DNA from: Rubrivivax sp.
Lineage (GTDB): Bacteria; Pseudomonadota; Gammaproteobacteria; Burkholderiales; Burkholderiaceae_C
DNA length: 64,000 nucleotides
Assembly: GCA_022842595.1 (NCBI GenBank)
Contig: JALHPF010000001.1
Coordinates: 62,001 to 126,000 of the forward strand
Reading direction: 5' to 3'
Part shown: one piece after another, positions 13,018 to 26,604 of the stretch
How the letters are laid out: each line of letters begins with the position of its first letter
How positions within the stretch are numbered: position 1 is the stretch's first letter
The notes under the pieces: model-generated
Told to the model about the DNA's origin: nothing
Database searches by the model: none
Seen by the model: only the letters and a program-made list of their open reading frames with translations
Made by a program: the position numbers and the translations under genes

Positions 13018-13181
13018 GGTGACCAGAGTCTCGGCCGCCGGCCCCGCGCGCAATCGGCGGATGTCACGCCGAATCAAGGCCCAGTTTTCAAGCTGCAGGT
13101 CGCTGTCGCGCCTGCGACCGCGCCGGCGCGGGGCGCAAACCTATGATCCGTCCTTCTGCAGCCCACCCGGAGCACCACCCC

Positions 13182-14159
13182 ATGCAAGCCTGGCTTTGCG
13201 AGACCCTGGACGGCATCGGCGCGATGCGCTTTCAAACCCTGCCCACGCCCGAGCCCGCCGCCGGCGAAGTGCGCATCGCCATCGAGGCGGCCAGCCTGAA
13301 CTTCCCCGACCTGCTGATCGTGGAAGGCAAGTACCAGTTCAAGCCGCCCCTGCCCTTCGTGCCCGGCGCTGAATTCGCCGGCCGGGTGGACGCGGTGGGC
13401 GCCGGCGTCAAGCACCTGAAGCCGGGCGACGCGGTGGCGGCGATTGCCGGCACCGGCGGCTTTGCCACCCACGCCTGCGTCGACGCCACGCGTGTGCTGC
13501 CGCTGCCACCGGGTTTTGCCACGCGCGACGGCGCAGCCTTCGCCTTCACCTACGGCACCTCGCACCACGCGCTGATCGACCGCGCCCAGTTGCAGGCCGG
13601 CGAAACCGTGCTGGTGCTCGGGGCTGCCGGCGGCGTGGGCACCGCGGCGCTGCAGATTGCCAAGGCAGCCGGCGCGCGCGTGATCGCCGCCGCGTCCAGC
13701 GACGAGAAGTGCGCCTTGTGCCGCGAACTCGGCGCCGACGAGACCCTGAACTACAGCACCCAGAACGTGCGCGAGACGCTGAAGGCGCTGACCGGCGGCA
13801 AGGGCCCCGACGTCGTCTACGACCCCGTGGGCGGCGACCTGGCCGAACCCGTGTTCCGCAGCATCGCCTGGCGCGGGCGCTACCTGGTGGTGGGTTTTGC
13901 CGGCGGTGGCATCCCGGCCCTGCCCTGGAACCTGGCCTTGCTGAAAGGCGCCAGCGTGGTGGGTGTGTTCTGGGGCGACTTCGTCAAGCGCGAGCCGAAG
14001 GCCAGTGCCGCGGCACTGATGCAGCTGGCGCAGTGGTATGCGCAGGGAAAGATCAAGCCCGTCATCGACCAGGCCCTGCCGATGGCCGAGCTGCCGGCCG
14101 CCTACGCCCGCATGGGCACGCGCCAGGTGCGCGGCAAGCTGCTGCTCGTGAACGACTGA
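13182..14159 (+). CDS. NADPH:quinone oxidoreductase-like MDR protein
   Basis: This 325-residue zinc-free medium-chain dehydrogenase/reductase belongs to the quinone oxidoreductase group. It shows the N-terminal GroES-like segment (SLNFPDLLIVEGKYQ), PGAEFAGRV, and the NADPH-binding VLGAAGGVGTAA loop around residue 145, followed by GADETLNY. The substrate is probably a quinone or enone and cannot be specified. The start is ATG 13182 (MQAWLCET) with a CGGAG sequence about 9 nt upstream; the ATG at 13143 has no such site. The gene is divergent from the TolC-family gene. Confidence 0.88.
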   Translation: MQAWLCETLDGIGAMRFQTLPTPEPAAGEVRIAIEAASLNFPDLLIVEGKYQFKPPLPFVPGAEFAGRVDAVGAGVKHLKPGDAVAAIAGTGGFATHACVDATRVLPLPPGFATRDGAAFAFTYGTSHHALIDRAQLQAGETVLVLGAAGGVGTAALQIAKAAGARVIAAASSDEKCALCRELGADETLNYSTQNVRETLKALTGGKGPDVVYDPVGGDLAEPVFRSIAWRGRYLVVGFAGGGIPALPWNLALLKGASVVGVFWGDFVKREPKASAAALMQLAQWYAQGKIKPVIDQALPMAELPAAYARMGTRQVRGKLLLVND

Positions 14160-14295
14160 CGCCTGCGACTGGCACGCGATATCGTCAGCCTGAAGGATGG
14201 CGGCCCCTCTTCCGGGGGCGGCCAGCGTTCGCTGAACGGTAGGTGAGTGGCCGCCAAAGCGCTAGCATCCTGGGATTGGAAATGCCGGGGTACGC

Positions 14296-15036
14296 ATGAC
14301 TGTCAAGGTGCTGATCGTCGAGGACAACCCGGTGGCGCGCAGCTTCCTGTGCCGCGTCGTTCGCGAGAGCTTCAGCGACGCCCACCACATCACCGAAGCC
14401 GGCGATCTGGAAACCGCGCGCCGGCAGATTTCGCTGACCGGCGGGGCGCAGGGGCTGCATGGCGTCGACCCGTTCAAGCTGATCCTGGTCGACCTGGAGC
14501 TGCCCGACGGCAACGGCCTGGAACTGCTGGTGGAACTGGCCCACTACCCGGCCACGAAGATCGTCACCACGCTCTATTCCGACGACGACCACCTGTTCCC
14601 GGCGCTGCAATGCGGCGCCGACGGCTACCTGCTGAAGGAAGACCGCTTCGAGGTGCTGGTGGAAGAGCTGCAGCGCATCGTGCGCGGCCAGCCGCCGCTG
14701 TCGCCAGCCATCGCGCGGCGCCTGCTCACGCACTTCCGCCATGGCGTGGGCAGCGACAGCCGCGCGCCCGATTCCGGCTTTGCACACCTGAGCGGCTTCA
14801 CCACCAGCCGCCCGGTGCCCATCGAAAAGCCCGCGCCCGACCACGAACGGCTGACCCCGCGCGAAAGCGAGGTGCTCACCTACCTGAGCAAGGGCTTCAC
14901 CATCAAGGAAATCGCCAGCCTGATGGGCATCAAGTGGTTCACCGTGAACGACCACATCAAGAGCATCTACAAGAAGCTGAACGTGAGCAGCCGCGCCGAA
15001 GCCGCGGTGCTGGCCAGCAAGCAGGGGCTGGTTTGA
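14296..15036 (+). CDS. NarL/LuxR-type two-component response regulator
   Basis: The N-terminal receiver domain has the acidic pair E9-D10, a phosphoacceptor Asp at about residue 66 (LILVDLELPDG) and the conserved Lys in GYLLKED. A linker of about 50 residues leads to a C-terminal GerE/LuxR helix-turn-helix (LTPRESEVLTYLSKG, then IKEIASLMGI and TVNDHIKSIYKKL). The 246-residue length is somewhat above the usual ~215 because of the linker. No histidine kinase gene is beside it, so it is an orphan regulator in this window; target genes are unknown. Confidence 0.9.
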   Translation: MTVKVLIVEDNPVARSFLCRVVRESFSDAHHITEAGDLETARRQISLTGGAQGLHGVDPFKLILVDLELPDGNGLELLVELAHYPATKIVTTLYSDDDHLFPALQCGADGYLLKEDRFEVLVEELQRIVRGQPPLSPAIARRLLTHFRHGVGSDSRAPDSGFAHLSGFTTSRPVPIEKPAPDHERLTPRESEVLTYLSKGFTIKEIASLMGIKWFTVNDHIKSIYKKLNVSSRAEAAVLASKQGLV

Positions 15037-15103
15037 CGCCGTAGATGCCAGGCTGACAGACGGGCGAAGGTTCGACGGGCGTCAAACACCTCGCCTGTGG
15101 CGG

Positions 15104-16312
15104 TCACAGGTTCTCAGGCACCCAGCCGAATTCCTTCAGCTTGAGCAAGACCTGGTCGCCCAGGATCTTGTGGCCGGCCGTCGTGGGATGCACGCCGTCA
15201 GCGAACAGATACTTCGTCGGATCGATGCCGCGAGTGATGCCGTTCAGGTTGGGGATGCCGGCGGCAGCAAAGGCCGATGCGGGTGCGGCGTTGCAGAACA
15301 GCGAAGAGCCGTCGGTCACGCGGCCGCTGGTCACTGCGCTGATGATGGCTGTGTTGCAAGCGGGCGCGGTGACATTGGTCAGACCGAAGCTCGCGGGATT
15401 GGCCAGTACGGAGGCGTTGAGCGCGCGGGTGTCGATGATCTTCGCGGCCGTGCCGTTCAGGCCCGCGAGCACCGTGGCGTTGAACTGCGCCGACAGGTTC
15501 GACAGCAGCTGCCGGGCGCCATCGGCCTGCGCATTGCCCGCGGGGCCGAGGCTGGCGCCGAAGGGCGTGGCCGACGCATCGGGCAGCGTCATCACTGCCA
15601 CGCGCTTGGCACCTTTGGCGATGATCTGGTCACGCACGAGCGCCACGAGTTCGTTGGCGGCGGTGACGACGTTGGCCTGCGCCGCGGCCGGCGGCAGGCC
15701 CTGGTTGATGGCACCGAACTGCACGAAGATGTCGTTGTTGCCACCGAAAACGAAGACGATGTCTTCGCCGTCGAAGGCGTTGAACGCCCGCAGATGGCTG
15801 GCGACCTGCTCGGTCATCGGGACTGTCATCGGCGCGGGCGCGCCAGCGTTGATGCCATTGCCGTTCGGGTTGCCGATGCCGGCCGGGTTGCTGACACGCG
15901 AGCCGCCCTGGCCGTAGCCCGTGCAGCTGCTTGCCAGCACGGGGTCGGCGGCGGCCGGGCAGGGGCGGCGATTCGACACCGGCCCGAAACCGACGAGCGC
16001 CGGGGTGATGAATCGGCCCAGCCGCGACGCGACCAGCTCGACCCAGATGTTCGCGACGTTGGTATTGCTCGTGGCGCTGTAGCCGGTGTGCGTGTTGGTG
16101 GTGAACCTGCCCCCGAAGAACGGCGCGGCGCCCGCGGCCTGGCCCAGCGGGACTTGCGTGGCCGGGGTATACGCCCCGAGGTCGGACAGGCTGTCGCCGA
16201 ACGACACCACACGTGTGGACAGGGTGGGGGTGGAATCTCCGCCACCGCAACCGGCGATGAACAGAGCGGCAGCGACAAGGATCGACAGCTGACCGCGACG
16301 GAAGATCTTCAT
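15104..16312 (-). CDS. GDSL-type esterase/lipase lipoprotein
   Basis: The 402-residue protein starts at ATG 16312 with a lipoprotein signal peptide (LFIAGC; Cys22). Block I is VVSFGDSLSDLGAY with the nucleophile Ser near residue 41. The block III Asn lies in FGGNNDIF and the catalytic Asp/His in FADGVHPT near the C-terminus. It should hydrolyse esters in the periplasm or on the outer membrane. The layout matches the SGNH hydrolases secreted by Burkholderiales; no autotransporter beta-barrel is attached. The gene converges with the response regulator gene and diverges from the MORN gene. Confidence 0.9.
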   Translation of the reverse strand: MKIFRRGQLSILVAAALFIAGCGGGDSTPTLSTRVVSFGDSLSDLGAYTPATQVPLGQAAGAAPFFGGRFTTNTHTGYSATSNTNVANIWVELVASRLGRFITPALVGFGPVSNRRPCPAAADPVLASSCTGYGQGGSRVSNPAGIGNPNGNGINAGAPAPMTVPMTEQVASHLRAFNAFDGEDIVFVFGGNNDIFVQFGAINQGLPPAAAQANVVTAANELVALVRDQIIAKGAKRVAVMTLPDASATPFGASLGPAGNAQADGARQLLSNLSAQFNATVLAGLNGTAAKIIDTRALNASVLANPASFGLTNVTAPACNTAIISAVTSGRVTDGSSLFCNAAPASAFAAAGIPNLNGITRGIDPTKYLFADGVHPTTAGHKILGDQVLLKLKEFGWVPENL

Positions 16313-16531
16313 GCTTCTTTTCCCCTTCGGTTTGGTGGTTCGCAGAAGTCCGAACACCGTTCGCGTTTGAATATACGGTTGGGCCCCGGCGCGCCCAGCG
16401 TGGGTTAACCCGGTTCGCAGCCGGCCTGGACTGAGGCAGCCAACACGCGACAAGATGTAACGCCGTCCCCATACTGCACGGCCGGAACGCGGTGCCGATA
16501 GAGCCCGCGGCCGCTTGGTGCAGGGAGAGGT

Positions 16532-17494
16532 ATGCGCAACTGGGGAGCGCCCGCTGTTCTGGGCGGGCTTGGCAGGCTCTGGGCGTGGTGCATGGTGCTG
16601 GCTGCGCTGGGGCTGACCGGCTGCGCCAGCCATCAATTCACCCGCGACGACGGCCGCGCCGTCGACGAAACCCTGCTCACGCAGATTCGCCACTACGGCG
16701 CCGGTGAACGCGCTCTACGGCCGGCCATCGTGCGCAGCGCCGGCCTGCGCGACGCCGAATGCGACAAGCAGTGGGAACTGCCCTTCTCGGTGGCCTCGGC
16801 CGACGACTGGAGCGAAGACGAACGCGTGGCCTGGGTACGCGCGCTGGGCGTGGACGAGCGCCTCACCGTGGTGGCAGCGGCCGCGGTTCCCCCGCTGCGG
16901 AACGGCGAACACTTCGCCAACGTGAACGGCCTGAAAGCCGAACGCCAGCCGGTGCTGCTGCTGGAGAAGATGGCCGAGTTGCACGGCCAGGGCCGACTGA
17001 CATTCCCCGACGGCGGCCTGTTCGAAGGCGATGTGCACGCCAACAAGATCGGCGACAAGGGCCGCATGCGCTTCCCGTCGGGCGATGTCTACGAAGGCAG
17101 CTACAGCAACGGCCTGGCGCATGGCCAGGGCAGCTACCGCTGGCGCAACGGGCAGCGGTACGAAGGCCAGTGGGTGAACGGCCAGGCCCAGGGCACGGGG
17201 CGGCTGGCGTTTGCCAGTGGCAACGTCTACGAAGGCGAAGTGCTGGGCGGGCAGCCGCAGGGGTAAGGGGTGATGAAGTACGCCTCAGGCGACGACTACA
17301 CCGGGCGCTTCGACGAGGGGCAGCCTGATGGGGAAGGCACCTATACCTGGGCGAATGGGGCGCGGTATACCGGGCAGTGGCGGGCCGGGCTAAAGCACGG
17401 GCGGGCGGTGATGCAGTGGGCGGGTGGGGAGCGGTGGGAAGGGGTTGATCGGGAGGATGTGCAGATGGTGGATGTGGGGCAGGTTGGGCGGTGA
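16532..17494 (+). pseudogene. MORN-repeat lipoprotein gene split by an in-frame TAA
   Basis: ATG 16532 follows a GGGAGAGG Shine-Dalgarno sequence and encodes a lipoprotein signal (ALGLTGC) and, from about residue 150, MORN repeats (YEGSYSNGLAHGQGSY, YEGQWVNGQAQGTG, YEGEVLGGQPQG). A TAA at 17264-17266 ends the frame after 244 codons. The same frame continues without shift for 76 codons with two further MORN units (YTGRFDEGQPDGEG and YTGQWRAGLKHG). The TAA falls at the variable position of the G-x-G turn, where Tyr, Lys, Gln or Glu codons one base away from TAA would fit. Codon use after the stop is richer in GGG/GTG. Either a recent nonsense mutation, a tolerated truncation (the first 244 residues are probably still made), or a sequencing error. 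Confidence 0.75.
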
Positions 17495-17675
17495 GAGTGC
17501 GTTGGCCGGCCAGAAACTCAACCAGAACTCCTAGGCGGTCGGCAAAAAAGCTTCTTCTGAATGAATCAGAGTGAAACGGTCAAACATTGGACAGTCCCTG
17601 GTCGACTGTCAGCTTCGACCGGCGATTGGACGACAACATCCTGCGCTTCCGGCTATACCGTGATTGCGAAAACAC

Positions 17676-17682
17676 GTTAGGC
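17676..17682 (+). other. Left-boundary core recombination site (GTTAGGC), attI-like
   Basis: GTTAGGC occurs 33 bp before the first cassette gene. The preceding bases (GCGAAAACAC) resemble the AAAACAAA stretch before the core in class 1 attI. No R''-L'' partner that would make a full attC is visible upstream. It could be a diverged attI or the remnant of an attC. Confidence 0.45.
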
Positions 17683-17714
17683 CTCACAAAACTGGCGCTC
17701 CGCGCTTCCCCCTC

Positions 17715-18119
17715 ATGAAATCGCAGATCACCTTGCCAGACGAGGACTTCTTCAAGGCGCTTGAAGTCGAGCGAACCCAATCGCTTGTGAATCGAGACGA
17801 AGAAGCGATACGGCGGATTCATGCACCGAACTATGAGTTGATCACCGTTCCGGGCCAGGTCATGAGCCTTGAACGCTACATGTCCCTCATGGCGCGGGAT
17901 GTCTTCTATGCCAAGTGGGAGCACGGGCCCATGCGGGTTCACGTCGCGCAGGGTATGGCAGCAGTCAGGTATCTTGCCGAGCTCACGTTTCCTTCGGGCA
18001 AGGTTGTCAAGTGCTGGCACACGGACATATACGCATCACAAGCCGGAGCGTGGCAAGCAATCTGGTCTCAGGCCACACAGATTCCGCAGGAGCAAGGGCA
18101 CGAGAGCGCTGCGCAGTGA
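17715..18119 (+). CDS. SnoaL/NTF2-like (DUF4440-type) protein, cassette-borne
   Basis: This 134-residue protein starts at ATG 17715 (MKSQITLPDED); an upstream in-frame start at 17664 would overlap the cassette boundary. The order of an N-terminal helix (FFKALEVERTQSLVNRDEE), an I-R-R-I-HAPNYELITV strand and a final CWHTDIYASQAGAWQAIWSQAT hairpin fits the DUF4440/SnoaL cone fold, here with its typical W-x-x-x-x-x-Q end. Function is unknown; members include isomerases, hydrolases and ligand-binding proteins. The stop lies one base before attC 1, as in integron cassettes. Confidence 0.7.
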   Translation: MKSQITLPDEDFFKALEVERTQSLVNRDEEAIRRIHAPNYELITVPGQVMSLERYMSLMARDVFYAKWEHGPMRVHVAQGMAAVRYLAELTFPSGKVVKCWHTDIYASQAGAWQAIWSQATQIPQEQGHESAAQ

Positions 18120-18120
18120 G

Positions 18121-18249
18121 GCCTAACCCCTCGCTCAACCGGACCCGCTACGGCAGGCGTCGTAAGCCCGGGCTGCAGTCCGCAGCCTATTCTTGCAGCC
18201 CGGGCTTACGCCGCCTGCCTCCGTGGGCCGGTTAGCTCGAACGTTAGGC
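18121..18249 (+). repeat. attC recombination site 1
   Basis: This 129-bp imperfect inverted repeat starts with R'' GCCTAAC and ends with R' GTTAGGC. The L''/L' region (CTCGCTCAACCGG paired with CCGGTTAGCTCGAAC) has the offset expected of attC. The middle forms a 17-bp perfect stem (CGTAAGCCCGGGCTGCA with its complement) plus a GGCAGGCG/CGCCTGCC stem. Confidence 0.88.
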
Positions 18250-18276
18250 ATCACACGAACATTCCTTCTCCGCCAC

Positions 18277-18792
18277 ATGAATGCACACTTCCCCGCCGAA
18301 GGCGGCTGCGACTGCAGGCTTGTCCGCTACCGCCTGGAATCATCTCCCCTCTTTGTCCATTGCTGTCACTGCAGATGGTGTCAAAGAGAGTCAGGTGCCG
18401 CTTTTGCACTCAACGCGATGATCGAAGCCGACAGAGTCACGAGTCTTGGCGTTCAACCAGAACTCGTCGACACTCCATCCAATAGTGGAATGGGCCAAAA
18501 GATTGCTCGATGTCCGGAGTGCCGAATCGCTGTGTGGAGCAACTACGCAGGTTCAGGACCAGTCACAAAGTTTGTACGCGTAGGGACCCTAGACAATCCG
18601 GATTTCCTTCCTCCGGATGTTCATATCTTCACAGCATCAAAGCAACCCTGGGTTGTACTTCCCGCCGGTGCTCCCGCGTTCGAGGAGTACTACGAGCGAG
18701 AGTCACTTTGGCCACAGTCCAGCCTCGAGAGACGGGAGGCGTTACTGCCACTGATAGAGGCCTACCAAGCTGCCCGGCGTAGTGACGCCTAA
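18277..18792 (+). CDS. GFA/CENP-V-family Zn-binding protein, cassette-borne
   Basis: This 171-residue protein starts at ATG 18277, 33 bp inside the cassette. It shows the Cys ligand pattern of the GFA (glutathione-dependent formaldehyde-activating enzyme-like) fold: GGCDCRLVRY near the N-terminus, CCHCRWCQRESGAAF and a later CPECRIAVWS. These Cys residues bind two zinc ions in the family. Catalysis of formaldehyde-glutathione adduct formation is known only for a few members, so the enzyme activity is not assigned. The TAA stop is within the R'' box of attC 2. Confidence 0.85.
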   Translation: MNAHFPAEGGCDCRLVRYRLESSPLFVHCCHCRWCQRESGAAFALNAMIEADRVTSLGVQPELVDTPSNSGMGQKIARCPECRIAVWSNYAGSGPVTKFVRVGTLDNPDFLPPDVHIFTASKQPWVVLPAGAPAFEEYYERESLWPQSSLERREALLPLIEAYQAARRSDA

Positions 18793-18915
18793 CCCCTCGC
18801 TCAAGCGGAGCGCCAACGGCAGGCCACCAGGCCCGGGCTGGTGGTACGCGGTACATTCTCACCAGCCCGGGCCTGGCGCCCTGCCGTCGTTGACCGGTTA
18901 GCTCGAACGTTAGCA
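18787..18915 (+). repeat. attC recombination site 2
   Basis: It has the same length (129 bp) and the same ends as attC 1: GCCTAACCCCTCGCTCAA on the left and CCGGTTAGCTCGAACGTTAG on the right. The inner part differs: a 17-bp stem (CCAGGCCCGGGCTGGTG and its complement) and an AACGGCAGG stem. The right core reads GTTAGCA rather than GTTAGGC because those last bases belong to the next cassette. Confidence 0.88.
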
Positions 18916-18926
18916 ATCGCGACCGC

Positions 18927-19172
18927 ATGAACACTCGATTCGCCATCGCCATTTGCATCATCGTCTTGGCCGGCTGTGCAAACAGCGGCAAGAACGTCGA
19001 AGTGTTGGATTGCTGGGATCATCAGATCGCCGTGACCCCAGCCGTCAGCAACACAATTACCTTCTGCTTCGAACCTGGAACAGTAGCCGCGACAACCCAC
19101 TTTCCCAACTTCACCTCCGATTCGACAAATTGCCGGCACTCCGGCAGAGTCACCGAGAACTCATCGAGGTAA
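18927..19172 (+). CDS. Small putative lipoprotein, cassette-borne
   Basis: This 81-residue product starts at ATG 18927, 17 bp into the third cassette. It has a lipoprotein signal peptide (AIAICIIVLAGC) and a mature part of about 65 residues with three Cys after the lipid Cys. No family is recognised. Small secreted or lipid-anchored proteins of unknown role are common cassette products. About 200 bp of apparently non-coding sequence follow before the next core site. Confidence 0.6.
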   Translation: MNTRFAIAICIIVLAGCANSGKNVEVLDCWDHQIAVTPAVSNTITFCFEPGTVAATTHFPNFTSDSTNCRHSGRVTENSSR

Positions 19173-19377
19173 ATCAAGTTCACGCTTGATCGAGGTACCT
19201 GCGAAAATGGCGGATCGATGCGCGCGAATGAAGTCTCGTGCGAATCTCACTACTTCGCAACGCTCTCGTGCACATCTCAAGACGTGCAGACCCCAATGAC
19301 ATTCAAGCCGGAATCGCACAGGGACCGTCGCGAACCTGGCCTGCAGCGCCTTCCTCCGCAGGCCGGCCAGTGATAGC

Positions 19378-19384
19378 GTTAGGC
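19378..19384 (+). other. Right-boundary core site (GTTAGGC)
   Basis: A third GTTAGGC core lies 8 bp before the GNAT gene start. A weak R''-like TCGCAAC at 19255-19261 would give a 130-bp element, but no stem like those of attC 1 and 2 could be drawn. It is read as the array's right edge or a decayed attC. Confidence 0.4.
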
Positions 19385-19392
19385 GCCGACTG

Positions 19393-19977
19393 ATGTCCTT
19401 CCCCCCACCCCCCCTCCGCACCCCGCGCCTGCTGCTTCGCCCCTTCGTCACGGCCGACGCGGACGCCATCTACACGCTGCAGAGCAATGCGCAGGTGCTG
19501 CGCTATTGGGACGCACCGCCCTGGACCGATCGCAGCCGGGCCGATGCCTTCATCGCGTCGTGCCGCGCGATGGAAGAAGACGATAGCGGGGCGCGGCTGG
19601 CCATCGAAAATCACGACGGCCGCTTCGTGGGCTGGTGCGCCATGTTCCGATGGAACCCCACGTTCCGCAGCCTCGGCATCGGCTACTGCTTCGAAGAGGC
19701 CGCATGGGGCCAGGGCTACGCCACCGAGGCCACGCGCGCCATGCTGCGCTGGGCGTATGAGTCGCTGGACCTCAATCGCGTCGAAGCGGAACTCGACACC
19801 CGCAACGGGCCGTCTGCACGGGTGCTGGAAAAGCTGGGCTTCGTTCGTGAAGGTCTTCGGCGAGAAGATTGCATCGTTTCGGGGGAAGTCTCTGACTCCT
19901 GGATCTACGGTCTGCTGAAGCGAGACTGGAACCCGGACCCAGCCCCAGGCCCTGCGGCTGGAAGCCGTGCAGCCTGA
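19393..19977 (+). CDS. GNAT N-acetyltransferase, RimJ/RimL type
   Basis: This 194-residue protein of the Acetyltransf_3 group has an N-terminal TPRLLLRPF, a central GIGYCFEEAAWGQGYATEA acetyl-CoA-binding motif A, and the C-terminal NGPSARVLEKLGF motif B. It acetylates an amino group; the family includes ribosomal-protein acetyltransferases and antibiotic-modifying enzymes, and the substrate is unknown here. The start is only 8 bp after a GTTAGGC core, so it could be a cassette gene, but its GC-rich codon use matches the chromosome. Confidence 0.88.
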   Translation: MSFPPPPLRTPRLLLRPFVTADADAIYTLQSNAQVLRYWDAPPWTDRSRADAFIASCRAMEEDDSGARLAIENHDGRFVGWCAMFRWNPTFRSLGIGYCFEEAAWGQGYATEATRAMLRWAYESLDLNRVEAELDTRNGPSARVLEKLGFVREGLRREDCIVSGEVSDSWIYGLLKRDWNPDPAPGPAAGSRAA

Positions 19978-20030
19978 CGGCTGGGTGCAACCGTGGCGCG
20001 ATGCAAGGGCCACCCAAACGAAAGCTCCAC

Positions 20031-20435
20031 ATGCTTGAAACCGCCACCCTCGGCACAGCGTCCATCACCGTCACGGGTGCCGACCTGGCCGGAATCCTCA
20101 GCCAGACGGCCGACGATGTGCTGCCGCCCGTCTACGCCACCAGCAGGATGATCGGGCTGATGGAATTGGCCGCAGCACGTGCCATGCGCCCGGTGCTGCA
20201 GGCCGGGGAACTGTCGGTGGGCGTCACCGTCGACATCCGCCACGCTGCAGCCACCCCCATCGGCCAGACCGTGCATGCCGAGGCCCGCTACGTGGGCCGG
20301 GAAGGCAAGCTCTATGTCTTCGACGTGCTGGCGCGCGACGCAGGCGGCGAAATCGGCCGCGGCGTGCACAAGCGCGCGGTGGTTTCCGAAGCGCGGCTGT
20401 TGCAAGGCGCCGCCCAGCGCGTGGCTGCCGGCTGA
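20031..20435 (+). CDS. FlK-like hotdog-fold thioesterase
   Basis: This 134-residue protein starts at ATG 20031 (MLETATLG); an in-frame ATG at 20001 is also possible. It closely follows the fluoroacetyl-CoA thioesterase FlK pattern: V-Y-A-T-S, G-L-M-E-L-A-A-A-R-A-M and R-H-A-A-A-T-P. These carry the counterparts of FlK's Thr, Glu and His catalytic triad. The Phe that FlK uses as substrate gate, six residues before that Thr, is Leu here. A general acyl-CoA thioesterase is more likely than fluoroacetate resistance. Confidence 0.8.
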   Translation: MLETATLGTASITVTGADLAGILSQTADDVLPPVYATSRMIGLMELAAARAMRPVLQAGELSVGVTVDIRHAAATPIGQTVHAEARYVGREGKLYVFDVLARDAGGEIGRGVHKRAVVSEARLLQGAAQRVAAG

Positions 20436-20524
20436 GGCCGGCCCCACCGCGGCGCACGTACACACGTGCATCATCCCATTCAAGCGGCGCGCCGACGTCG
20501 TCCACCCTCATCAAAAAACCGCTC

Positions 20525-21142
20525 ATGCGCTTCGAAGGCACTCTCACATCCTGGAACGATGAACGCGGCTTCGGCCGCATCGAATCCAGCCAAGGCGGCG
20601 AACCCATCTTCGTGCACGTCTCTGCCTGGCCGCGCGGCCCGGCCCGCCCGCAGCTGGGCCAGGCCGTCAGCTTCGAAGTGGGGACGGGGCCCAAGGGCAA
20701 GCGCGCGAAGAGCGTGCAGCTGGTTCAGGCCCGCCGGCCGGCCAGGCAGCCGTCCGATCGCGCAATGCGCGCGCAGTGGGGCACGGCCACGCCGTTTGCG
20801 ATTCCCGCCTTCGTCGTCGTCTATGTCGTCGTCGCCGTGCTCTGGAAGCTGCCGCTGTGGGTGGCAGGCGGGTATGTCGCGCTCAGTGTTGCCAGCTTCT
20901 TCGCCTACGCCGCCGACAAGTCCGCCGCCAGCCGCGGCGAATGGCGAACGCCGGAAAACACCTTGCATCTGCTGGCCCTGGCAGGCGGCTGGCCGGGCGC
21001 GCTGCTGGCGCAGCAGTTCCTGCGCCACAAGTCCACCAAGCAGCCGTTCAGGCAGGTGTTCTGGGCCACGGCCTGGCTGAACGTGGCGGGCCTCGTCGTG
21101 CTGGCTTCGCCGCTCGGCCGGTCCGTGTTGCAGGCCGTGTAA
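20525..21142 (+). CDS. Cold-shock domain plus DUF1294 membrane protein
   Basis: The first ~65 residues form a cold-shock (CSD) domain: GTLTSWNDERGFGRIE with RNP1-like GFGRI, then IFVHVSAW. After a basic linker come about three membrane segments and the DUF1294 signature (FFAYAADKSAASRGEWRTPE, then LLALAGGWPGALLAQ and the HKSTKQPF sequence). This fusion is widespread in proteobacteria. The CSD probably binds nucleic acid; the function of DUF1294 is not known. Confidence 0.9.
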   Translation: MRFEGTLTSWNDERGFGRIESSQGGEPIFVHVSAWPRGPARPQLGQAVSFEVGTGPKGKRAKSVQLVQARRPARQPSDRAMRAQWGTATPFAIPAFVVVYVVVAVLWKLPLWVAGGYVALSVASFFAYAADKSAASRGEWRTPENTLHLLALAGGWPGALLAQQFLRHKSTKQPFRQVFWATAWLNVAGLVVLASPLGRSVLQAV

Positions 21143-21388
21143 GTCCCGCCCGCGCCGAGTGAGCGAGCTTCTGAACTCAGAGATGCGGCGTCGTTCGGCG
21201 GGATGATGCGCGCCAATGCTTCCATGGATAGAAGATCGACAGCCACTTCGCGGGGCAAGACGATGATGCCTGCGATGCAAGTGAACAAGTGTCGGCAAGA
21301 GGCGCCTTGATATTGCCGGCTGGAACTGGATGGCGATCAGAACTTGCCCGGTGCCTTGTGGCACGCCTAAACCCTTGCAGGAGAACCC

Positions 21389-21757
21389 ATGACACCTTCC
21401 CAGATTTGCGCGCTTGCAGACAGCATTGCAAGCAAGTACGGATGGCAGGAATGCAGACAATGCGCCACGGCTCTCCGAGAGGCCTTTGTCAAGGAGCATT
21501 TGAGCGGGTCTGTCCTTCGGCTCGCCACCCAGGGCGGGCGCGGCTACATCGTGATGAAGGACAGTAATTTCAAGCTGCCCTTCACGGTCCCTCAGGGCGT
21601 TGACTCCATTGCCGACAATGGGCAGCATTTCGGCGTATTGATCGGCAATCAGGTATTCGACAACGTCTTTCGTTCTGGCATTCCTTTTGCCGATTGGCAG
21701 AATCAGTTTGACTGCGACGTCCACTTCTTTACGGTGACGACCATCGAGACGTTCTGA
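21389..21757 (+). CDS. Papain-fold toxin-2-like small protein
   Basis: This 122-residue protein starts at ATG 21389 after an AGGAG site. It shows the layout of the papain fold toxin 2 domain: a Cys near residue 25 in CRQCATALREAF, then GRGYIVMKD, and a His in DNGQHFGVLIGNQVFDN followed by Asp/Asn, giving a plausible Cys-His-Asp/Asn set. Such domains are usually the C-terminal warheads of polymorphic toxins; here the domain is alone, with no secretion module or recognisable immunity gene beside it. GC content is below that of its neighbours, which suggests acquisition. About 246 bp upstream and 198 bp downstream hold no gene that I can support. Confidence 0.65.
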   Translation: MTPSQICALADSIASKYGWQECRQCATALREAFVKEHLSGSVLRLATQGGRGYIVMKDSNFKLPFTVPQGVDSIADNGQHFGVLIGNQVFDNVFRSGIPFADWQNQFDCDVHFFTVTTIETF

Positions 21758-21955
21758 CTGACCCTTCGGGATGACAGTCGCGTCCTCGATATGGAAGTTC
21801 ACCAACCCGACGCTCACCGTCCGGGTCAGCAGTGGGCCCGGTGGCGCCACGAACCGGTCACTAGGCTGCACGTCGCAACGGCCCATCCGCTCAGCCTGGC
21901 TCCATCGCCGCTGCGACTGCCGGCGAACAACGTCAGGCATTCCATCTGAAGATCG

Positions 21956-22645
21956 ATGCTCACCCTCACCATCGGCAACAAGAACTATTCGTCCTGGTCG
22001 CTGCGGCCCTGGGTGCTGCTGAAGCAGCTGGGCATTCCCTTCGAGGAACGGCTGGTCCCCTTCGGATCAGCCGGCGGCGTTTCGCCCTTCGCTGGCTTTT
22101 CACCGTCGGGCCGTGTGCCCTGCCTGGTCGACGGCGGCTCCACGATCTGGGATTCGCTGGCCATCACCGAATACCTGGCCGAATCACACCCGCAGGTGTG
22201 GCCGCAGGACAAGGCCACCCGGGCCTGGGCACGCTGCGTCGCCGCCGAGATGCATTCCGGCTTCTCGAACATCCGCAATACCTGCACCATGAACTGCGGC
22301 ATCCGGGTGCGGCTGCACGCCTGGCCGCCCGCACTGCTGGCCGAATGGCAGCGGCTGGACGCGCTGTGGTGTGAAGGCCTGCAGCGCTTCGGCGGGCCGT
22401 TCCTGGCGGGGCCGCAGTTCACCGCGGCGGATGCGTTCTTCGCGCCCGTGGCGTTTCGCGCTCAGACGTATTCGCCGCCGCTGTCGAACGAGGCTGCCGC
22501 GTACCTGCAGCGCCTGCGCCAGCTGCCGCCCATGGCCGATTGGGTTGCCAGTGCGCTGCGGGAGACCTGGCGCGACGCCGAACACGAACAGGAAGCCCGC
22601 GCCGTTGGCGATTGGCTGGAAGACCTGCGGGCGGGTGCTGCATGA
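21956..22645 (+). CDS. Glutathione S-transferase family protein
   Basis: This 229-residue protein has an N-terminal thioredoxin-like domain (LTIGNKNYSSWSLRPWVLLKQ, SGRVPCLVDGG with the cis-Pro, and IWDSLAITEYLAE, the GSH gamma-Glu-binding Ser) and an all-helical C-terminal domain (GPQFTAADAFFAPVAF). It is probably a cytosolic GST of the 'stress/zeta-like' bacterial type. Ser in the NYSSWS segment is the likely catalytic residue. The substrate is unknown. Confidence 0.88.
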   Translation: MLTLTIGNKNYSSWSLRPWVLLKQLGIPFEERLVPFGSAGGVSPFAGFSPSGRVPCLVDGGSTIWDSLAITEYLAESHPQVWPQDKATRAWARCVAAEMHSGFSNIRNTCTMNCGIRVRLHAWPPALLAEWQRLDALWCEGLQRFGGPFLAGPQFTAADAFFAPVAFRAQTYSPPLSNEAAAYLQRLRQLPPMADWVASALRETWRDAEHEQEARAVGDWLEDLRAGAA

Positions 22646-22682
22646 TCGGCAGCCCTTCGGCCCTTTCACCGATTCACCCGTC

Positions 22683-23315
22683 ATGACCCTGTCGACCTGG
22701 CTGCTGTACGTGGCCGCCGTTCTGGTGCTCACCATGACGCCCGGGCCCAGCGTGCTGATGTGCATCTCCACGTCCGTCCAGCACGGGCCCAGGCGCGCGC
22801 TGGTGGCGGCGCTGGGCATCATCCTGGCGCTCACCGGCCTGATGCTGCTGTCGATGCTGGGGCTGGGCACGGTGCTGGCCACGTCGGAAGTGCTGTTCTC
22901 GGCGCTGAAGTGGCTGGGTGCCGGCTATCTGGCCTACCTGGGAATCACGGCCTGGATGTCCAAGACTTCGAGCCTGGTGGTGCCCGATGCTTCCATGCCG
23001 CAGGTGAGCGCCCGCGCGATCTTCGTGCGCGGCATGCTGGTGGGGGCCAGCAACCCCAAGGCGCTGCTGTTCTTCGGCGCGCTGTTCCCGCAGTTCATCG
23101 ACCCTTCGGCGCCGCGGGCCAGCCAGTTCCTGATCCTCGGGCTGACCTTCGTCTTCTTCGAACTCTTCTGGCTGTCCACCTATTCGCTCACCGCCGCGCG
23201 GGCGCGCCACTGGCTGCAGCAGCCGCGCCGGGCGCTGGCCTTCAATCGCTTGACGGGTGGGGTGTTCTTGCTGGCGGCCGGCTTGCTGGCGACCACGCGG
23301 CGCAGTGGGGCCTGA
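22683..23315 (+). CDS. LysE/RhtB-family amino-acid exporter
   Basis: This 210-residue protein starts at ATG 22683, 37 bp after the GST gene. The N-terminus carries the family signature TMTPGPSVLMCISTSVQHGPRR, followed by six predicted membrane segments and the GMLVGASNPKALLFFGALFPQF motif. It exports amino acids (such as homoserine, threonine or lysine) or related compounds across the inner membrane. The exact substrate cannot be told. Confidence 0.9.
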   Translation: MTLSTWLLYVAAVLVLTMTPGPSVLMCISTSVQHGPRRALVAALGIILALTGLMLLSMLGLGTVLATSEVLFSALKWLGAGYLAYLGITAWMSKTSSLVVPDASMPQVSARAIFVRGMLVGASNPKALLFFGALFPQFIDPSAPRASQFLILGLTFVFFELFWLSTYSLTAARARHWLQQPRRALAFNRLTGGVFLLAAGLLATTRRSGA

Positions 23316-23340
23316 CACGCGCTTGCCACCGCCCCACGCC

Positions 23341-23658
23341 ATGCCGCCTGAACGAGGCTTGCGCCAGCCCCTGGGCACCGCCGTCAAGTTCTTCGTGGCG
23401 GCCATCGTCGTGCTCGGCATGGTGGGCGGGGCGCTGATCGTGGCGTACGCCGGCTACGAGACCTCGCCCAAGCGTGGCGGCACGCCTGTGTTCGTGCCGG
23501 CACCCCAGGCGTATCTTCTGGCAGCGCCGATGTTCGGCATGTCGGTCATCGGCTGGGTGGCGCTGGTCAGGGAGCGCTGGCGCTCGATAACGGTGGGCGC
23601 GGTGGCCGTGCTGCTGTACCTGGCGGTGGCGGCTGGCTTGACGGCCTTGCTGGGCTAG
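23341..23658 (+). CDS. Small three-helix membrane protein, unknown
   Basis: This 105-residue protein starts at ATG 23341 (MPPERGLRQ). It has a membrane helix near residues 16-37 and two more in the second half, separated by a loop (ETSPKRGGTPVF). No family is recognised. It follows the exporter gene by 25 bp, and codon use is typical of the genome. Confidence 0.55.
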   Translation: MPPERGLRQPLGTAVKFFVAAIVVLGMVGGALIVAYAGYETSPKRGGTPVFVPAPQAYLLAAPMFGMSVIGWVALVRERWRSITVGAVAVLLYLAVAAGLTALLG

Positions 23659-23717
23659 AACCAGGGCCCCGTTGGGCAAACATGGCCCTTGTCCACAGGG
23701 CCCCGGCGAATGAAGGC

Positions 23718-23981
23718 CTACCGCCAGCGCCGCCGCACGTCCGCCAGGTGCGCCAGCCCGGCTGCCGACAACCCCGCTGCCACCCAGGCCCAGCCCGCGC
23801 CGCTGACACCGGCCCGCACGGCCAGCATCAAGGCCAGCCCGGCCGCCAGCGTGGGCACGAATTCCGCCGGCGCCAGGCCCTTGCCCGTCTGCCGGTGATA
23901 CAGCGCCAGCACGCCGCCTTCCAGCAGCGTCATCACGATGACGAGGTCGATCAGGTGCAACACCATGGCCGTGTCTTCCAC
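23718..23981 (-). CDS. Small membrane protein downstream of bchP
   Basis: This 87-residue protein has about three hydrophobic segments and a basic C-terminal tail (VRRRWR). It lies 7 bp after the bchP stop on the same strand, at the end of bchG-bch2-bchP, so it is very likely co-transcribed. The start is ATG 23981 or ATG 23966. No named photosynthesis protein is recognised. A membrane role linked to bacteriochlorophyll tail assembly is inferred only from position. Confidence 0.6.
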   Translation of the reverse strand: MEDTAMVLHLIDLVIVMTLLEGGVLALYHRQTGKGLAPAEFVPTLAAGLALMLAVRAGVSGAGWAWVAAGLSAAGLAHLADVRRRWR

Positions 23982-23988
23982 GCCCGCG

Positions 23989-25215
23989 TCAGACGCGCGC
24001 CATGCCCAGCAGGTGCGCCATGTCCTTGAAGAAGATGCGCACCTGCTGCATCGGCTTCTTGCGCGTGAGCTTCTTGTTCATGTAGCTCTCGAAAGTCATC
24101 TGCTGCACGTCCTTGTCCTTGCAGATGGCCACGAAGCGTTCGCGGCGCTTGTCGTTCGTGTACCAGAAGCGCTGCATGATGCCCAGCACCAGGAAGACCG
24201 TGCCATGGTCCTTCATGAAGCGCTTGCGGGCACCGGCCAGGGCGTGGCCCTTGCCGGTGGCCAGCAGTTCCACCACGGCGTCGGCGGCCACGCGGCCGCC
24301 GTACATGGCGTAGTAGATGCCTTCGCCTGATGAAGGCGCCACCACGCCGGCGGCGTCGCCGGCCAGCACCACGTCGCGGCCGTTGTCCCACTTCTTCAGC
24401 GGCTTCATCGGCAGCGGCGCGCCTTCGCGGCGCAGGGTTTCGGTGTCGGCCAGGCCGGCGGCTTCACGCAGGCCGGTGGTGGCGTTGCGCAGGCTGAAGC
24501 CCTTGTCGGCGCTGCCGGTGCCGATGCTCATGGTGTCGCCGTGCGGGAACACCCAGCCGTAGAAGTCGGGGCTGATGGTGCCGCGGTAGTACACGTCGCA
24601 GCGCGTGCCGTCGTAGTCGGGGCCGGGGTTGGCCGGGGCGCGCACGATCTCGTGGTACGCGAACACGCATTCCACGTCCTTGGCGCCGGGCACGGCGTCG
24701 CGGGCCACGCCCGAGCGTGCGCCGTCGGCGCCGATGATGGCGCGGGCCCGCACCTGCGCCGGCTCGCCATGGCCGCGTTCGGCCCTGCTGCGCTGCTGGA
24801 AGTGCACGATGGCCGTACCGTCGCTGTCGCGGCTGATCTTCTCGTAGGTGCCGATTCGGCGCTCGGCGCCGGCGCTGGCCGCGCGGTCGCGCAGCCATTC
24901 GTCGAAGACCTCGCGGTCCACCAGGCCGACGAAGCCGTTCTCGATGGGGATGTCCACCTTCACGTCGGCCGGCGAAACCATGCGTGCCGACCGGGCCTTG
25001 GCCACCAGCAGTGAATCGGGGATGTCGAAGTCCTTGATCAGCCGCGGCGGGATGGCGCCGCCGCAGGGTTTCACGCGGCCGGCGCGGTCGAGCATCAGCA
25101 CGCGCTTGCCTTTGCGCGCCAGGTCGTGGGCGGCGGTGGCGCCGGCGGGGCCGCCGCCGACGACGACGACGTCATAGGTTTCGGTGGCTTGGCTTGCAGG
25201 GCTGGGCATCGACAT
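23989..25215 (-). CDS. bchP: Geranylgeranyl reductase (bacteriochlorophyll side chain)
   Basis: This 408-residue FAD enzyme reduces the geranylgeranyl tail of bacteriochlorophyll a to phytyl in three steps, at the membrane. It shows the dinucleotide-binding VVVVGGGPAGATAAHDLARKG start (residues 15-35), the CGGAIPPRLI segment typical of the family, and GDAAGVVAPSSGEGIYYAM, the FAD-binding second motif. Two in-frame ATGs (25215 and 25209) are possible. It lies 6 bp downstream of the PucC-like gene and closes the bchG-bch2-bchP transcription unit. Confidence 0.95.
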   Translation of the reverse strand: MSMPSPASQATETYDVVVVGGGPAGATAAHDLARKGKRVLMLDRAGRVKPCGGAIPPRLIKDFDIPDSLLVAKARSARMVSPADVKVDIPIENGFVGLVDREVFDEWLRDRAASAGAERRIGTYEKISRDSDGTAIVHFQQRSRAERGHGEPAQVRARAIIGADGARSGVARDAVPGAKDVECVFAYHEIVRAPANPGPDYDGTRCDVYYRGTISPDFYGWVFPHGDTMSIGTGSADKGFSLRNATTGLREAAGLADTETLRREGAPLPMKPLKKWDNGRDVVLAGDAAGVVAPSSGEGIYYAMYGGRVAADAVVELLATGKGHALAGARKRFMKDHGTVFLVLGIMQRFWYTNDKRRERFVAICKDKDVQQMTFESYMNKKLTRKKPMQQVRIFFKDMAHLLGMARV

Positions 25216-25221
25216 GGCGGT

Positions 25222-26604
25222 CTACCTTGGTTGACCCAGGGCCACCGCGGGCTCTTGCCGCGTGTGCCCGGGGGGCTGCGCCACAGGGCGCGATGAAATC
25301 GTTGCAGAGGAAACCGGCAGCTGCCCGCCGATGCGTGCGGCCAGCCAGGCCGCGAAAACGAACAGCAGCGCTTCGGCCGCGAACACGGTGCAGTAGGCGG
25401 CCACTGGCGAGCCGATGAGCCAGCGCGCCAGGTCGCTGGCGCCCGTGCCCAGCACGCCACCCAGGCCGAAGGCCACGGCCTGGGCCGCACCCCACAGGCC
25501 CATGCGCACGCCGGCGCGGCGTTGCCGGCCTTCGTGGGCCAGGCGCATCATCGAAGCGATGGCCGCGATCGAGAAAGCGCCGTTGGCCGCGCCCAGCAGG
25601 AAGACATTGGCCGTCAGCGGCCAGGCCGGGCCCACCGCACCGGCGGCCACCAGGCCCCCCAGGGCCAGGGCCGACACCAGGCAACCGCCCACCGCCCACG
25701 CGCGCAGCGAACCGAAGCGCCGCCCCAGCACGCCTGCACCGGCCACGGCCACCAGGATCATCCCGGCCAGCACACCGCCATGCTGCAGGCCCGACAGCTG
25801 CGTCGTCTGCCCCGGCGTCCAGCCGAACACGGTGCCGGCGAAGGGCTCCAGGATCAGGTCCTGCGCGCTGAAGGCCAGCATCGACACGAAGATGAAGATC
25901 GTGAAGCGACGTGCTTCGGGTTCGGCCCACACCTGCGCCAGCGCCTGGCGGAACGGTGGTGGTGCCGGCTCGGCCTGCACTTCGGCGCCCGGCAGGTGGC
26001 TTTCGACCTTGTGCAGCGCCAGCAGGGCGGCCACGAAGGCCAGGCCGCAGACGCCCGCCATCACGGCCACCAGCCGCGCCGGGGTGAACGGGTCCAGCAG
26101 CTTGCCGGCCATCACCGCGGTGAAGGCCAGGCCGAAGATCATCATCATCCAGACGATGGTGGCGGCCGGGGCACGCCGGCTTTCGGGCACGCTCTTGGCC
26201 AGCAGCACCAGCAGGTTGGTTCCCGCGGCGCTGACGCCGCCGCCGATGAGCAGGAAACACAGCACCGCCAGCACGATGCCGGCCACCGGCGACGAGCCCA
26301 TCCAGGCCGTGGCCGCCGCCGCACCCACGGCGCCCAGCGCCAGCACGGCCAGGCCGCCGACGATCCAGGGCGTGCGCCGCCCGCCCACGTCGCTGCCGAA
26401 GCCCATGCGCGGGCGTGTCACCTGCACCAGGTAGTGCAGGGCCACCAGCAGGCCGGGCAGCAAGGCCGGCAGGGCCAGTTCGACGACCATCACGCGGTTC
26501 AGCGTCGACGTGGTCAGCACCACCATCGCGCCGATGGCCATCTGCACCAGGCCCAGGCGCACCACGCCCAGCCAGCCCAGGGTGCCGTCGGCCTGCGTTC
26601 TCAT
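25222..26604 (-). CDS. PucC/BCD-family membrane protein (orf428/Bch2 type)
   Basis: This 460-residue protein of the bacteriochlorophyll-delivery (BCD) family of the major facilitator superfamily has about 12 membrane segments. Family motifs are LNRVMVVEL in helix 1 and RPRMGFGSDVGGRRTPWI in the loop after helix 2, followed later by AFSAQDLILEPF. The same gene sits between bchG and bchP in Rhodobacter (orf428). It is thought to help insert or move bacteriochlorophyll for light-harvesting assembly. It overlaps bchG by 4 bp (ATGA). Confidence 0.9.
   Translation of the reverse strand: MRTQADGTLGWLGVVRLGLVQMAIGAMVVLTTSTLNRVMVVELALPALLPGLLVALHYLVQVTRPRMGFGSDVGGRRTPWIVGGLAVLALGAVGAAAATAWMGSSPVAGIVLAVLCFLLIGGGVSAAGTNLLVLLAKSVPESRRAPAATIVWMMMIFGLAFTAVMAGKLLDPFTPARLVAVMAGVCGLAFVAALLALHKVESHLPGAEVQAEPAPPPFRQALAQVWAEPEARRFTIFIFVSMLAFSAQDLILEPFAGTVFGWTPGQTTQLSGLQHGGVLAGMILVAVAGAGVLGRRFGSLRAWAVGGCLVSALALGGLVAAGAVGPAWPLTANVFLLGAANGAFSIAAIASMMRLAHEGRQRRAGVRMGLWGAAQAVAFGLGGVLGTGASDLARWLIGSPVAAYCTVFAAEALLFVFAAWLAARIGGQLPVSSATISSRPVAQPPGHTRQEPAVALGQPR

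Follow-up and report, generated by a model that had tools for sequence, protein, structure and literature searches.

A probable integron cassette array with no integrase gene nearby in the chromosome of a phototrophic Rubrivivax

Introduction

Clusters of attC sites lacking an integron integrase (CALINs) are a category of IntegronFinder, and the data set of PMC9024848 comprises 2961 of them which, according to the accessible text of that article, are reported only from two attC sites upwards and contain almost 6 sites on average. According to the accessible text of PMC8618304, which cites Cury et al., a CALIN can arise by off-target insertion, when intI is lost, or by rearrangement. In the chromosomal integrons of Xanthomonas, as far as the accessible part of PMC12444791 describes them, intI is fixed beside ilvD, and CALINs lie at other loci in about half of the genomes.

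Here we analyze a locus in a stretch of 64,000 nucleotides (the window) on contig C1 of a Rubrivivax genome, a 5.46-Mb draft in 75 contigs. We conclude that the locus is very probably a chromosomal integron cassette array without local intI, that is, a CALIN, which begins at an attI-type left edge, holds cassettes inserted by IntI and is likely cut off from its integrase. It resembles CALINs in having two attC sites and no intI nearby, and differs from them in its attI-type left edge and in its number of good sites, only two against the mean cited above. With the integrons of Xanthomonas it shares a genus-wide intI at a fixed neighbor, detached attC clusters and worn arrays.

Results

Two attC sites that fold on the bottom strand

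The features of the array are listed in Table 1. An earlier note, made from the letters of the window alone, had described two 129-bp attC sites with identical outer arms and different inner stems, and this description was borne out: attC1 and attC2 both start with the 18-nt left arm GCCTAACCCCTCGCTCAA and have the right arm AGCTCGAACGTTAG in common, and their inner stems are unlike. Its statement that stop codons abut or overlap R'' also proved correct, as the stop of the first cassette gene (18117-18119) lies one base before and that of the second (18790-18792) falls inside. The box consensus for attC sites is RYYYAAC for R'' and GTTRRRY for R', as given in the accessible text of PMC12901181; attC1 contains both boxes, and in attC2 R'' reads GCCTAAC and R' reads GTTAGCA, the last six bases of which come from the following unit.

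Table 1. Coordinates of the array features in the window
Feature	Position	Strand	Properties
attI-type left edge, GAAAACAC-GTTAGGC	17668..17682	+	recombination point after G17676; matches sister array starts
Cassette 1	17677..18243	+	567 bp; G/TT cores at 17676 and 18243
Cassette 1 gene, DUF4440 (NTF2-like), 134 aa	17715..18119	+	PF14534 29.8 bits, cut-off 25.2
attC1	18121..18249	+	129 bp; fold z -8.1; covariance model 134.6 bits (site used in building the model)
Cassette 2	18244..18909	+	666 bp; G/TT cores at 18243 and 18909
Cassette 2 gene, GFA family, 171 aa	18277..18792	+	PF04828 91.4 bits, cut-off 24.3; stop inside R''
attC2	18787..18915	+	129 bp; fold z -7.7; covariance model 128.1 bits (site used in building the model); final six bases are those of the next unit
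Possible cassette 3 remnant	18910..19378	+	lipoprotein-like ORF with in-frame stop; no folding attC
GTTAGGC, possible right-hand core	19378..19384	+	unsupported; GNAT start codon at 19393

The z values in Table 1 refer to folding of the bottom strand, and none of 200 shuffles of either site was equally stable. In the lowest-energy fold of attC1, R'' is paired with R'; in that of attC2 the two boxes lack canonical pairing, because the last bases, TTAGCA, are those of the next unit and because one pair of the L stem is G-G. The unpaired base of the L stem, by which we judged membership among attC sites, falls in column 16 of the alignment described below. A search of Rfam returned seven matches at E≤1, all to miRNA models below their gathering scores, of a kind that any long hairpin may trigger. 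The idea that attC2 is a recombinant of two attC types was dropped, as its differences from sites in the congeneric genomes G044 and G056 can be explained by point changes.

Covariation and spread of the attC family

We aligned 16 sites. Two are those of the window, and five further congeneric genomes contributed 12 (three each from G044 and G006, four from G056, one each from G003 and G002); the other two come from Rhodoferax sp. TH121 and a Pseudomonas plasmid. Compensatory changes that keep the pair were found in 25 of the 37 consensus pairs. The proportion of paired cells was 95.3%, compared with 75.1% in column shuffles, and on none of five measures did any of 500 shuffles equal the real alignment; the consensus structure was derived from the same alignment and is helped by related rows, so that the covariation is the stronger part. 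Versions of the consensus structure slid along the alignment had at most 48.1% of their cells paired.

A covariance-model check, which according to the earlier note might have rejected both sites, rejected neither, although the model used (R1) was built in this analysis and is not IntegronFinder's own; attC1 and attC2 are among its 16 building sequences, so that their bit scores are not independent. When the two arms served as the search motif, real sequence yielded 28 entries, counting overlapping copies of the same site, and 1.26 Mb of shuffled sequence none; a laxer motif scan gave two matches in 0.98 Mb of shuffled sequence. With stricter filters and the best 42 matches per genome, R1 detected the family (E≤0.01) in 70 of the 81 congeneric genomes. 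A search of E. coli genomes gave no match. In genome G045, matches of equal score and equal spacing were seen at the start of contig C1, at the end of C2 and, inverted, at the end of C1; either an array exceeding 8 kb is repeated there, or the assembly produced the pattern at its contig ends.

The plasmid member of the alignment (Pseudomonas plasmid NZ_CP156903.1, L120:3501-3638) shares 73.9% identity with attC1 across 96% of the query (window 18115-18255), with the same arms and the same stem plan. It lies directly 3' of an aac(6') gene that adjoins blaVIM-2, and TniQ, TniB and recombinase genes follow further out, surroundings in which class 1 integron cassettes usually stand. The plasmid site differs from the window site in its own setting, which is mobile and carries resistance cargo.

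Cassette genes

The cargo of the two cassettes is ordinary. Relatives of the DUF4440 gene were found in seven of the 81 genomes, its own included (E≤1e-15); in G020 the copy is the first cassette next to intI, and in G021 it lies between attC-like sites. The plasmid relatives of cassette 1 are all distant, none being more than 36% identical. Another gene of the DUF4440 family is located just past dnaE2 in the source genome of the window (L089:5241-5615). For the GFA gene of cassette 2, R1 matches (E≤0.001) were present at nine of the best 80 of at least 523 confirmed GFA loci, and at locus L014 the gene is flanked by two attC sites. GFA genes are listed among the abundant integron-associated functions in the accessible text of a metagenome survey (PMC7370490).

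Edges of the array

The earlier note had proposed that three GTTAG cores delimit the cassettes, of which the one at 17676 is here corrected to an attI-type edge and the one at 19378 is unsupported. The sequence of the left edge, GAAAACAC-GTTAGGC, is the same as that at which the intI-linked arrays of G034 and G020 begin, and a near-identical core, GAGAACAC-GTTAGGC, begins those of G024 and G076. The shorter motif NAACAC-GTTAG was found in 10 of the 28 stretches upstream of intI that were scanned, and AACACGTTAG has a single occurrence, at the left edge, on both strands of 1.89 Mb (the window together with stretches L001-L087). As an attI site we counted a GTTRRRY core preceded by the left box of the family, and this combination is present at 17668-17682. 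A published minimum consensus for attI1-derived ends, AAACAAAGTTRRRY, is similar in kind, as far as the accessible text of PMC12901181 shows.

The likeness to the sister cores covers 8 bases before the G. Upstream of the core, six of seven comparisons between the window and sister attI regions were no better than shuffles, so that it is only the core that gives the left edge its attI-type character; the sister attI regions themselves have no visible mutual likeness beyond the core. Array edges of the attI type apart from intI were found once in G056 and twice in G006, and none was present in the examined stretches of the C8, C9 and C42 clusters of the source genome or of the clusters of the sister genome G009. 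On contig C25 of G006 (L118:2537 and 2696), two attI-type cores 159 bases apart mark the edge of an array; the part of that contig that was read contains no intI. To the left of the array in the window, a MORN-repeat gene has an in-frame stop at 17264-17266, beyond which 74 further residues can be read in frame; the G009 homologue aligns on both sides of this stop.

On the right-hand side, attC2 is followed by TTAGCAATC and then by an 81-aa lipoprotein-like ORF (18927-19172), which had no Pfam match and no match on plasmids; its frame, interrupted by the in-frame stop at 19170-19172, stays open for about 200 bases beyond. A third attC at 19325-19385 was considered and rejected (z -0.31, 75 of 200 shuffles as stable, no covariance-model match). 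The third unit lacks the 3' attC of its own by which we recognized a gene cassette, and the core at 19378 is without a folding attC, so that this unit is a remnant or a chance occurrence. The best congeneric relative of the GNAT gene that follows is in G056 (69% identical, the next at most 49%), where the orthologue lies outside the array. Comparing the regions upstream of the GNAT gene in the window and in G056 gave a score of 22, which 6% of shuffles also attained, so that the two regions are not significantly alike and do not mark a right edge; the GNAT gene may be either a last cassette or host sequence.

The integrase gene and its dnaE2 neighbor

A profile search of the whole genome confirmed that the window holds no integrase gene, as the earlier note had stated, and located a single intI above the curated cut-off on contig C21 (C21:86518-87480, 458.2 bits, cut-off 265), an intact copy; four further intI-type matches, on C3 and C38, were below it. 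The product exceeds the cut-offs for TIGR02249 and NF011946 (464.7 versus 435 for the latter), and its residues 31-349 align with the solved IntI4 structure 2a3v. Given that the array lies about 79 kb from the nearer end of contig C1, intI is at least about 79 kb away. No attC was found in the 33 kb read around intI on C21, and no attI-type core NAACAC-GTTAG within 900 nt upstream of intI. A complete chromosomal integron has intI adjacent to attI and the array, which is not the arrangement here. Two good attC sites in a row with no intI nearby correspond to the definition of a CALIN (two or more in a row), and since intI lies on a different contig, where the 33 kb examined hold no attC, we classify the locus as a CALIN and not as a complete integron. 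From the earlier reading, a chromosomal integron with a uniform attC family in a phototroph, the cassettes and the uniform family are retained and the complete integron is given up.

The intI gene overlaps dnaE2 by 52 bases (L089:393-4827, C21), and the product of the latter is an error-prone DNA polymerase (1489.9 bits, cut-off 939). Just upstream of intI there is a perfect CTGT-N8-ACAG box, which we take to be a LexA-type box. Across the genus, intI was detected in 64 of 81 genomes (E≤1e-80), and 61 of 68 matches were inspected, leaving out seven that were partial or at contig edges. Whereas the fixed neighbor in Xanthomonas is ilvD, at 33 of these 61 loci dnaE2 follows within 1 kb 3' of intI on the same strand, often with the LexA-type box before intI: a perfect box was found near the intI start at 28 of the 33 dnaE2-linked loci, compared with 4 of the 28 others. 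At 12 of the 33, attC sites run off upstream of intI; the counts of attC and dnaE2 are lower bounds because the contigs are short. The arrays of sister genomes such as G034, G064, G066 and G003 begin upstream of intI and run away from it. On a tree of IntI proteins, in which three rows have long branches and an unsure placement, the dnaE2-linked state requires 6 changes, compared with 20.4 when labels are shuffled, and none of 500 shuffles was as low.

In other genera of the family, dnaE2 was within 1 kb of intI at 5 of 50 inspected loci and at 1.3 kb at two more, the 50 being taken from 129 matches, 30 of them with only about 1.5 kb downstream and 20 chosen partly for long open frames. A search that lay mostly outside the subscription literature returned no published report of the intI-dnaE2 linkage; the words dnaE and polymerase do not occur in the main text of PMC2426708, nor polymerase and operon in that of PMC3108266, as far as these texts are accessible.

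Genomic surroundings

The window contains bchP, bchN, bchH and a crtI-family gene, all above curated cut-offs, in agreement with the earlier assignment of the array to the chromosome of a phototroph. Further members of the attC family, which the earlier note had thought worth seeking elsewhere in the genome, were found on contigs C9 and C42 (11 R1 entries at E≤1, some of which are reverse-strand matches to a place already listed) and weakly on C8 (14.3 bits), with one doubtful match on C28; all of them score far below attC1 and attC2. The clusters on C9 (L199:7602-8603), C42 (L200:2884-4391) and C8 (L006:8522-9987) have a worn appearance.

In the sister genome G009, the stretch corresponding to 17469-23723 is missing, and the counterparts of 17001-17468 (MORN gene, 78% identical) and 23724-25989 (bchP onward, 88%) are 890 bases apart. 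This gap agrees with an insertion, but neither dates nor delimits it. A base-exact empty site was not found, as the MORN gene and bchP are neighbors in G009 with 890 other bases between them. Nor was the same gene order without attC-type sequences seen in all relatives, an outcome that the earlier note had named as speaking against an array: the MORN gene beside the array occurs in only three of 81 genomes, its own included, and G009 lacks the stretch in question.

Discussion

Origin of the array

In the reading that we consider very probable, IntI would have recombined bottom-strand attC hairpins with attI or attC sites, allowing the cassettes to enter. This IntI was probably that of the lineage itself, which is today encoded on C21 behind the LexA-type box by a gene overlapping dnaE2. 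The likeliest history is that attI and the array were later separated from the integrase, either because a local intI was lost or because the DNA was rearranged; two complete cassettes and perhaps a worn third are present. If IntI is made during the SOS response, it could still act on the array in trans, which, to judge from the intact gene, would be possible.

The main alternative, which we regard as possible though clearly less likely, is off-target insertion, in which IntI from C21 put circular cassettes into an attG-type chromosomal site that was never an attI. Such secondary chromosomal sites were reportedly described by Loot et al. in 2024, as papers citing that work have it. The alternative is kept alive by the scatter of attC clusters over contigs C1, C9, C42 and, weakly, C8 of the source genome and over five contigs of G009, and by the C8 array, which begins at GTTAGGC without an attI-type motif; it is also among the published routes to CALINs (PMC8618304, accessible text). 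Against it, the left edge in the window has the attI-type core of the sister arrays over the 8 bases before the G, which favors loss of intI or rearrangement over off-target insertion.

It is improbable that the array came with a mobile element, a plasmid or transposon integron foreign to the lineage. The close attC relative on a Pseudomonas plasmid and the poorly conserved surroundings, with a FlK-type gene (at 20034) found in one of 81 genomes and the rarity of the MORN gene, would fit such an arrival, but the attC family is present in most of the congeneric genomes, several with large arrays, and no transposase or relaxase was met among the ORFs examined (13143-25215). That the hairpins are terminators or dispersed palindromic repeats standing by chance after ORFs is largely refuted: long GC-rich hairpins 3' of stop codons can be terminators, but no terminator-like site was found in 17400-19500, the hairpins have R and L boxes, the unpaired base and covariation, and their relatives form arrays starting beside intI, one of them lying 3' of a resistance cassette.

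Beyond the probable CALIN itself, we tentatively consider a split, trans-acting integron, an idea somewhat less likely still than off-target insertion, in which an SOS-controlled intI-dnaE2 operon would serve distant attI-attC arrays, so that one LexA switch would free cassette shuffling together with error-prone translesion synthesis.

Meaning for the genus

The locus is a known kind of element, and chromosomal integrons are widespread in the genus. Chromosomal integrons with detached cassette clusters are a known pattern, which the locus extends to a genus that includes phototrophs; nearly all of the genomes examined in this genus carry the attC family. The likeness of attC1 to the attC of the clinical aac(6') cassette offers a lead, a hint as to the chromosomal lineage in which that site may have originated. 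The locus is notable more for the dnaE2 neighborhood of its integrase than for the array itself: if the arrangement of a LexA-type box before the intI-dnaE2 pair, seen in many species, holds in living cells, cassette rearrangement and stress mutagenesis would be placed in one transcription unit.
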